Origin: Saccharothrix carnea
Lineage (GTDB): Bacteria; Actinomycetota; Actinomycetes; Mycobacteriales; Pseudonocardiaceae
Direction of reading: 5' to 3'
DNA: 64,000 nucleotides
Assembly: GCF_003014735.1 (NCBI RefSeq)
Contig: NZ_PYAX01000003.1
Span: 372,001 to 436,000, forward strand
A program made the position numbers and the translations under genes. A model generated the notes under the pieces. The model had not been told where the DNA came from and searched no databases. It worked only from the letters and a program-made list of their open reading frames with translations. This document shows positions 45,605 to 48,251 of the stretch, piece by piece (the stretch's first letter is position 1; the number at the start of each line of letters is the position of its first letter).

Positions 45605-47683
45605 ATGGACGAAGGCGCACTCCGCGAACTGGCCGAGGAACGGCTGAGGGCATTGGCGGGCCCTCAGGCGGTCCTTCGTGACGACCAGTGGACGGCGATC
45701 CACGCGCTGGTGTCCGAGCGGCGGCGGGCGCTGGTGGTGCAGCGCACGGGGTGGGGCAAGTCCGCCGTCTACTTCATCGCCACGGCGTTGCTGCGGTCCC
45801 TAAGCGAGGGGCCGACGGTGATCGTGTCGCCGTTGCTGGCGCTGATGCGCAACCAGGTCGACGCCGCCGCGCGGGCGGGGGTGCACGCGGCGACGATCAA
45901 CTCGGCCAACACCGACCAGTGGCAGGAGGTGCAGGACCGGGTGGCGTCCGGTGACGTGGACGTGCTGCTGGTGTCGCCGGAGCGGCTGAACAACCCGGAC
46001 TTCCGGGACACGGTGCTGCCGTCGTTGACCGCGTCGGCCGGGCTGCTGGTGGTGGACGAGGCGCACTGCATCTCCGACTGGGGCCACGACTTCCGGCCGG
46101 ACTACCGGCGGCTGCGGACGTTGCTGACCGAACTGCCCGCCGGGGTGCCGGTGCTCGCCACCACGGCCACGGCCAACGACCGGGTGGTGCGTGACGTGGC
46201 CGAGCAACTGGGGCTGGGCGCGGGCACGGACACGCTGGTGCTGCGCGGGCCGTTGGACCGGGAGAGCCTGCGGTTGTCGGCCGTGCGGCTGCCGACCGCC
46301 GAGGCCAGGCTGGGGTGGCTGGCCGAGCGGCTGGAGCAGCTGCCCGGCTCCGGGATCATCTACACGCTCACCGTGGCCTCGGCGGACGACGTGGCGGCGT
46401 TCCTGCGCGAGCGCGGGTACGAGGTGGCGGCGTACTCGGGGCGCACCGACCCGGCCGAGCGCCAGCGGGCCGAGGAAGACCTGTTGGCCAACCGGGTCAA
46501 GGCGCTGGTGGCGACCTCGGCGCTGGGCATGGGGTTCGACAAGCCCGACCTGGGGTTCGTGGTGCACCTCGGCGCGCCGCCCTCCCCCATCGCCTACTAC
46601 CAGCAGATCGGCCGCGCGGGTCGTGGCGTGGAGCGGGCCGAGGTGCTGTTGCTGCCCGGGCCCGAGGACAAGGACATCTGGGCGTACTTCGCGTCGTTGG
46701 CGTTCCCCCCGGAACACGTGGTGCGGCAGGTGCTCGACGTGCTGCCGGCGGACCGGGCGATGTCGACGGCGGCGCTGGAGCCGATGGTGGAGCTGTCGCG
46801 CACCCGGCTCGAAGTGGTGCTGAAGGTGCTCGACGTGGACGGCGCCGTGCGGCGGGTGCGCGGCGGGTGGGTGTCGACGGGGCAGTCGTGGTCCTACGAC
46901 ACCGAGCGGTACGAGCGGATTGAGGCGGCGCGGCAGGTGGAGCGGCAGGCGGTGCTGGACTACCTGGCCACCGACGGCTGCCGGATGGAGTTCCTGCTGC
47001 GGCAGTTGGACGACCCGCACGCGGCGCCGTGCGGGCGGTGCGACAACTGCACGGGGCAGCGCCCGTCTGCGGAGGTGTCGGACGCGGCGGCGTCGGCGGC
47101 GCGGGAACGGCTGCTGCGGCCCGGCGTCGAGGTGGAGCCGCGCAAGATGTGGCCGACCGGGATGGCGGCGGTCGGGGTGTCGTTGTCCGGGAAGATCCCG
47201 CCGGGCGAGGTCGCGGCGACGGGGCGGGCGCTGGGGCGGTTGACCGACATCGGCTGGGGCAACCGGTTGCGGTCGCTGTTCGCGGCGGAGGACCAGGAGA
47301 TCCCCGAGGACGTGTTCGCCGCGTGCGTGAAGGTGCTGTCCGCGTGGGGGTGGGCGGACCGGCCGGTGGGCGTGGTGACGGTCGGGTCGCGGAGCAGGCC
47401 CGCGCTGGTGGGCAGCTTCGGGCAGCGGATCGCCGGGGTGGGCCGGTTGCCGCTGCTGGGGCAGGTGTGGTTGGGCCCGGCGACGCGGCGGGCCAACAGC
47501 GCGCAGCGGTTGGCGGGGCTGGTGCGGGAGACCGACGTGCCGGACCTGTCCGGTGTGGACGGTCCGGTGCTGCTGGTGGACGACCAGGTCGACACCGGGT
47601 GGACGATGACGGTCGCCGCACGGCTGCTGAGGCGGGCGGGTGCGTCGGCGGTGCTGCCGTTCGCGTTGGCGGTGACGGCGTGA
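45605..47683 (+). CDS. recQ: RecQ-family DNA helicase with C-terminal phosphoribosyltransferase-like segment
   Basis: The 692-residue helicase has motif [12 protein letters not shown], the DEAH box in [19 protein letters not shown], and the RecQ zinc-binding cysteines ([10 protein letters not shown], then CGRCDNC). After about residue 560 it departs from classical RecQ. No HRDC is seen. Instead [20 protein letters not shown] at about residue 655 resembles the PRPP-binding loop of phosphoribosyltransferases. ATG 45605 begins the conserved N-terminus. It may unwind replication intermediates, and the tail's role is unknown. Confidence 0.88.
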
Positions 47684-47705
47684 CGAGAGGGGTGGGAGCG
47701 ACGGG

Positions 47706-48251
47706 GTGAGACTGACGACGGAACGGTTGCTGCTGCGGCCTTTCACCGCGGCCGACGCACCGGCGTTCGCCGAGTACCGGTCGGATCCGGAGGTGGCCCG
47801 GTACCAGGGTTGGGAGGCACCGTTCTCCTTGGCGCAGGCCGAGGAGTTCGTGCGGGACGTCGCCGCGGCCGATCCGACCGCACCGGGCTGGTACCAGTTC
47901 GCGGTCGAGGCGGACGGGGTGCTCGTCGGGGACGTCGGGGTGGGGCTGCACGAGAACCGGATGCAGGCCGACATCGGGTACACGCTGGCGACCGCCCACC
48001 AGGGGCGCGGGTACGCGACGGAAGCCGTGCGGCGGGTGCTGGCGTACTTGTTCGAGGTGCGTGGCCTGCACCGGTTGTCCGCCGAGTGCGACGCCCGCAA
48101 CATCCGGTCGGCGAGGCTGCTGACCAGGCTCGGGTTCCGGCAGGAGGGGCACCGGGTGTCGAGCACGTGGCTGAAAGGAGAGTGGACGGACGACCTGCTG
48201 TTCGGGCTGCTGGCCGTCGAGTGGCGCGCGGCGGGGGACTCGCGGCGCTGA
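47706..48251 (+). CDS. GNAT-family acetyltransferase, RimJ/RimL-like
   Basis: The 181-residue protein has RLTTERLLLRPFTAADAPAF at the N-terminus, the acetyl-CoA loop in TAHQGRGYATEAVRRVLAYL, and CDARNIRSARLLTRLGF, a pattern of the RimJ/RimL group. These modify protein N-termini, amino sugars or antibiotics. GTG 47706 follows recQ by 22 bases on the same strand. Confidence 0.88.
   Translation: MRLTTERLLLRPFTAADAPAFAEYRSDPEVARYQGWEAPFSLAQAEEFVRDVAAADPTAPGWYQFAVEADGVLVGDVGVGLHENRMQADIGYTLATAHQGRGYATEAVRRVLAYLFEVRGLHRLSAECDARNIRSARLLTRLGFRQEGHRVSSTWLKGEWTDDLLFGLLAVEWRAAGDSRR

Follow-up and report, generated by a model that had tools for sequence, protein, structure and literature searches.

An RqlH-type RecQ helicase with a ComF-like phosphoribosyltransferase fold and without an adjacent RqlI in Saccharothrix carnea

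In the work presented here we analyzed a stretch of 64,000 nucleotides from Saccharothrix carnea (the window; coordinates refer to its forward strand unless another locus is named) and find that the open reading frame at 45605..47683 encodes an RqlH protein of 692 amino acids (rqlH, also psyrT; ATG start, no internal stop). Sequence and structural models reveal a helicase core, a zinc motif, a phosphoribosyltransferase (PRTase) fold with an intact DD-x-x-D-T-G-W-T motif, the absence of RqlI, and housekeeping genes as neighbours. We consider it somewhat probable that this protein is an orphan RqlH, i.e. a helicase-loaded PRTase of the ComF type that keeps its site for PRPP and whose toxicity is limited by the protein itself and not by RqlI. 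The function of the RqlH PRTase was left open in 2015, as was the question why most Gram-positive bacteria tolerate RqlH without RqlI (PMC4670107, which like PMC9005727 and PMC12409345 is cited throughout from a part of its text).

The N-terminal part of the protein (residues 1-355, 45605..46669) is a RecQ-type SF2 helicase core with a TGWGKS motif containing K52 and a DEAH motif containing D151. Pfam places the DEAD domain at residues 26-197, Helicase_C at 245-340 and RecQ_Zn_bind (PF16124) at 444-483, the latter with 27.8 bits above a cut-off of 25. The zinc-binding tetracysteine motif consists of C459, C476, C479 and C482 (46979..47050), and all four cysteines are invariant across the 35 rows of the alignment. 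In the full-length model (pLDDT 85.7) RecQ cores are matched up to about residue 486, with the core of Deinococcus radiodurans RecQ aligning over 392 residues (VIA-align Z 33.9, rmsd 2.8). The protein scores above the cut-off of the RecQ family model TIGR00614 (239 bits vs 219.8) and below that of the canonical RecQ equivalog TIGR01389 (283.9 bits vs 640.2; NCBIfam). Neither HRDC nor RQC gave a Pfam row at E<=1 on the 692 residues, and residues 491-692 are modelled as hood and PRTase. On these grounds it is not a canonical RecQ; two further RecQ-like frames are present elsewhere in the same genome. DpdF of the Dpd system was rejected as well, with 151.5 bits against a cut-off of 550 in NCBIfam and a best PADLOC score of 327.4. 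The PADLOC model of PsyrT, in comparison, is matched with 727.6 bits over residues 8-691 (model positions 6-684 of 689). Since this model is also matched by 35 of the 35 members of the RqlH clade of the window, and RqlI from an E. coli plasmid matches PsyrA, we treat RqlH and PsyrT as one family. The window protein is RqlH/PsyrT, and an ordinary copy of it. The name RqlH was reportedly given to the Mycobacterium smegmatis protein by Ordonez, Unciuleac and Shuman in 2012. The initial annotation had rightly recognized a RecQ helicase fused to a C-terminal PRTase, on which reading frame, Pfam domains, structural model and PDB matches agree, but had treated the fusion as new, although it was already published as RqlH (PMC4670107). 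It had furthermore placed the PRTase in the last 130 residues, in the position of HRDC. A PRTase is indeed found there and HRDC is absent; together with the hood, however, the unit spans approximately residues 491-692 (47075..47680), and as far as Pfam shows it stands for RQC and HRDC both.

The PRTase assignment rests on the structural model, on PDB matches and on profile comparison. Residues 484-692 were modelled by AlphaFold from 42 sequences with a mean pLDDT of 94.1, and the PDB matches listed by Foldseek for this model are PRTases or PRTase-fold proteins, so that the prediction requested in the initial annotation did not yield an unrelated fold. The best Foldseek rows are PyrR, HGXPRT, Helicobacter pylori ComF and APRT, all modest (E-values from 6.7e-4 up, query TM-scores 0.30-0.47), and PurR is also among the structural rows. 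VIA-align ranks H. pylori ComF highest, with 174 aligned residues at a Z-score of 12.8 and an rmsd of 7.2; ShosT and a block of ordinary PRTases follow with Z-scores of 8.5-9.9. A ComF profile matched the RqlH C-terminal profile with a probability of 97.2% over 112 columns (reversed control 0.3%), a comparison that favours ComF, as its profile was built from 10 actinobacterial ComF-like frames while the other PRTases were single sequences; single PRTases of the same genome reached at most 46.8%, matching mostly at the PRPP loop. Pribosyltran (Pfam) matches residues 654-682 with 21.7 bits, below its cut-off of 26.3, and for the C-terminal part alone NCBIfam returns weak PRPP synthetase and ComF matches, among them TIGR00201 (ComF) with 21.5 bits against a cut-off of 233.55, which most ComF-like frames of the relatives miss too. 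As judged from the model and the profiles, the C-terminus of RqlH is a PRTase fold with ComF as its nearest relative, in line with the kinship to ComF-type PRTases that had been suggested.

Like the window protein, H. pylori ComFC (PDB 7p0h) combines a PRTase with a hood, at 10% identity over the 174 aligned residues. It differs in acting in competence as a separate protein, in having a zinc finger of its own and in its PRPP loop, DDIITTGTTL (PMC9005727). ShosT (PDB 8zvd, 8zvc) shares the PRTase fold (Z 9.8, rmsd 3.6, 153 aligned residues), but is the PRTase of a toxin-antitoxin pair with a DprA-like partner, and its Z-score is tied with those of ordinary PRTases. We know of no RecQ helicase in ShosT. 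In PADLOC, the RqlI encoded at the E. coli locus L092 matches ShosA models as well.

The 13-residue segment that the initial annotation had matched to a PRPP loop comprises residues 655-667 (47567..47605) and contains the motif D659-D660-Q-V-D663-T-G-W666-T. The assignment is borne out by the conservation of the loop in 97 sequences, a set that contains near-duplicate Saccharothrix rows: D659 is present in 96, D660 in 94, Asp or Glu at 663 in 95 and W666 in all 97. The acidic pair expected of an active PRTase is thus present as D659 and D660. In the wider RqlH set, W666 is replaced by Phe in one protein (L196). PRPP may not be the ligand of RqlH, given this near-invariant tryptophan where the ComFC loop has Thr. 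The segment GSRSRP (residues 594-599, 47384..47401), with S595 in 96/97 and P599 in 94/97 sequences, is the probable PPi loop, as it is flanked by a strand and a helix in the model. The flexible-loop segment was located by alignment at residues 629-639 (11 amino acids, 47489..47521). Among 14 sequences (89 of 91 pairs kept), dN/dS was 0.088 for the helicase, 0.149 for the zinc region, 0.263 for the hood and 0.150 for the PRTase core, a pattern that points to purifying selection on a core gene.

The distribution of rqlH fits this picture. Each of the 25 genomes from the genus has the gene, with 85-97% identity among full-length hits other than itself, as do 55 of 60 genomes of the same class (by order of the phylum listing). 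When the phylum was sampled evenly, the C-terminal profile matched 103 of 396 genomes; two of these hits (G282, G226) are not RqlH on inspection, so that at most 101 of 396 are carriers. In the window, rqlH is preceded by nadD, a P450, a TetR regulator and proA, and followed by a GNAT acetyltransferase, an MFS transporter, proB, obg, rpmA and rplU (names according to our reading of domains and translations). In representative sequences the flanks of actinobacterial rqlH differ between families and consist of housekeeping genes (nadD, proA, obg, rnhB and the like), and no operon partner is constant across families among 80 actinobacterial loci. We read rqlH as a chromosomal, vertically kept core gene. 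Phage records gave 25 matches, none of which covered 80% of the query, and accordingly no phage RqlH was seen. Control of rqlH by the SOS response through a LexA box found no support: in the window only four matches occur, all with two mismatches, and 78 orthologue upstream regions contain 0 exact matches and 6 with at most one mismatch, compared to 0 and 4 in shuffled regions. Elsewhere in the window, a SAM riboswitch (RF00162, 32715-32830, forward strand, 83.9 bits) is the only Rfam hit at the gathering threshold.

No RqlI/PsyrA gene adjoins rqlH in the window. The next gene, 22 bases downstream (47706..48251, forward strand), is the GNAT acetyltransferase (PF13302, 132.5 bits), which is not RqlI; across the short gap (47683-47706) the two genes may be co-transcribed. 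The single DprA of the genome lies on another contig and shares 31% identity with E. coli RqlI across 138 residues. A two-gene RqlHI/PsyrTA system in the window was rejected for lack of an adjacent DprA-like partner. None of the 80 named actinobacterial loci has an RqlI beside rqlH, with at least 3 kb of downstream sequence available in 75. By class, it is adjacent in 0 of 40 carriers from the class of the window vs 8 of 40 from other classes (80 of the 103 phylum carriers covered). Of Gram-positive RqlH carriers, 99.6% are reported to have RqlH only (PMC4670107).

What an RqlH without its partner can do is known from E. coli RqlH-RqlI (Russell and Mulvey 2015, PMC4670107), which corresponds to PsyrTA. 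The E. coli protein shares its architecture, Walker A and DEAH motifs and the DD of the PRPP loop with the window protein; it differs in having an adjacent RqlI and a ComF-like N-x-x-G-A-F element in the flexible loop, both of which the window clade lacks. When RqlI is missing, the PRTase domain of RqlH leads to SOS induction, filamentation and slow growth of E. coli, and the exchanges D663A or DIVD663EVME, at a residue in the putative PRPP pocket, abolish all of these effects. The PRTase domain alone is non-toxic, toxicity requiring its connection to the rest of RqlH (PMC4670107). These published genetics favour a toxic, probably catalytic PRTase. The allele L150, which we took as the F11-like E. 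coli allele for mapping, has K49, D148 and D662-D663 placed as in the numbering of the paper; E. coli D663 therefore comes second in the Asp pair and is equivalent to D660 of the window protein. RqlH of M. smegmatis likewise carries its PRTase at the C-terminus of a RecQ-like helicase, and RqlI is absent from this actinobacterium (PMC4670107). It belongs to a different genus, and the likeness is one of description, not of sequence.

Taken together, an orphan RqlH that limits its own toxicity could function as follows. The helicase and zinc-binding parts would bind and move along DNA, as is known for homologues, and would deliver the PRTase to single-stranded DNA. There, PRPP (as Mg-PRPP) or a nucleotide would be held by D659-D660 and the T-G-W-T loop, and the PRTase might act on, or read, nucleobases or DNA ends during repair. 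The changed hood and flexible loop of the window clade may limit the harm, a step for which the differences in the loop are the only indication. If the changed loop does so, RqlH could serve repair without an antitoxin.

In order to relate the PRPP site to RqlI pairing, 124 RqlHs were surveyed. Two copies for which pairing is not known were set apart, and pairing was scored by a distance rule, the wider version of which was used and raised the paired copies from 28 to 32. All 32 RqlI-paired RqlHs retain the acidic pair, compared to 68 of the 90 RqlI-less ones, the other 22 having lost it. In a smaller set the numbers are 14 of 14 vs 48 of 68 (Fisher p 0.017, a test that ignores descent). The position of E. 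coli D663 is no longer Asp in 16 RqlI-less copies, as labelled by the narrower pairing rule. On the tree, at least 6 changes of the acidic-pair trait and 8 of RqlI pairing are required. In an independent-pairs test (p 1) the differing traits run the same way, but in only 0.2-0.7 of 5-6 pairs. A group consisting of orphans only comprises 70 rows (support 83), and 63 of these form a part with a support of 99. The shortened sequence L169 was outside the first alignment and L175 outside the first tree; a second tree covered 120 of the 124 rows, with a long and unsure branch for L175. Both L169 and L175 are RqlI-paired RqlHs in which the helicase and C-terminal parts do not form one full-length frame. 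The tie between RqlI pairing and an intact acidic pair is thus a lead from sequence comparison, the independent contrasts being too few to establish significance.

The initial annotation had also asked whether orthologues lose the acidic residues. Within the window clade they are kept, with DD in 22 of 24 members and Asp or Glu at 663 in 24 of 24; the losses that do occur are confined to lineages lacking RqlI, most of them distant from the window clade and the nearer ones being Nocardia and Rhodococcus. The flexible loop separates the groups in another way: N638, a second Asn like that of ComF, is found in 14 of 14 RqlI-paired proteins vs 0 of 24 in the window clade, at a position where the variability of the loop makes the alignment less sure. 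The part of PMC4670107 used here reports no major sequence differences between paired and RqlI-less RqlHs. A possible, though rather doubtful, extension is that RqlI-less lineages disarm the RqlH PRTase in two ways, several by replacing the Asp at D663/D660, whose exchange for Ala is harmless in E. coli, and the window clade by keeping the PRPP site and rebuilding the flexible loop, so that a PRTase harmful to DNA would become a safe, DNA-loaded, PRPP-binding module without need of an antitoxin.

Other readings of the PRTase domain have to be weighed against that of a self-limiting orphan RqlH. The domain could be a non-catalytic sensor of PRPP or nucleotides that adjusts helicase activity, in analogy to PurR and PyrR, which regulate with the same fold; the initial annotation had proposed such a sensor, which would couple repair to nucleotide pools. 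The intact PRPP loop, the presence of both proteins among the structural rows and the binding of PRPP and nucleotides by ComFC without a known reaction (PMC9005727) would suit such a role. Its support is limited to the fold, however, while the ATPase and helicase activities of M. smegmatis RqlH are independent of the PRTase domain (as cited in PMC4670107) and the D663-dependent phenotype in E. coli consists in damage to DNA, more in keeping with an activity than with sensing; we regard a sensor as unlikely. That the fold is a relic, serving only as a platform for binding DNA or protein, appears more unlikely still. The several RqlI-less lineages that have lost the acidic pair and kept the domain speak for it, but the window clade keeps the motif and its PRTase core is under purifying selection.

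A part in defence, as the toxin of a PsyrTA-like toxin-antitoxin or anti-phage system, is suggested by PsyrT being the best full-length model and by RqlHI pairs that elsewhere lie within type I restriction-modification and BREX loci. The missing neighbour, with the sole DprA on another contig, the universal presence in the genus and the housekeeping flanks without any island make this improbable for the window genome, and PsyrTA gave no protection in one test in native-host E. coli (PMC12409345). Hardly credible is a role in DNA uptake in the manner of a fused ComFA and ComFC: ComF is the nearest relative by structure and profile, yet the helicase is RecQ-like and not ComFA, the genome has a separate ComF-like frame (L112), and none of the seven scanned neighbours is a competence gene.

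The architecture itself is known, and the acidic-pair survey adds one modest new lead beyond the published papers. Within one phylum, naturally occurring RqlHs either have or lack the acidic pair and either have or lack RqlI, which offers a direct test, and the puzzle of orphan RqlH has become testable through named residues. If the disarmament reading is true, it would show whether the toxicity of RqlH stems from PRPP chemistry on DNA.

Outside the window clade, the loci of rqlH are diverse. A type I restriction operon of E. coli contains rqlH-rqlI between its genes for subunits S and R, on a plasmid as well as on a chromosome (L092 2646-12725; L149 4694-14773); the allele sited there is present in 53 of 5426 E. 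coli genomes, and other E. coli have the pair between gntU and yhgN. In Nostoc, RqlI is likewise found beside RqlH. A Tsukamurella RqlH (L097 4932-7040), upstream of yajC-secD-secF, has a decayed PRPP loop, VVDESGTGWA. The RqlH of an archaeal Halanaeroarchaeum plasmid (L095 4935-7016) has the loop DDTVGSRWS, with RqlI neither annotated nor found nearby. A Sinorhizobium rqlI (L094 6983-8373) is split over two frames and adjoins an intact rqlH, and one genome (G075) contains two rqlHI copies about 20 kb apart (L185, L193). On an Acinetobacter plasmid (L096 1-11974), rqlH-rqlI and a DUF262 gene are located between pglX and pglZ of BREX-1.
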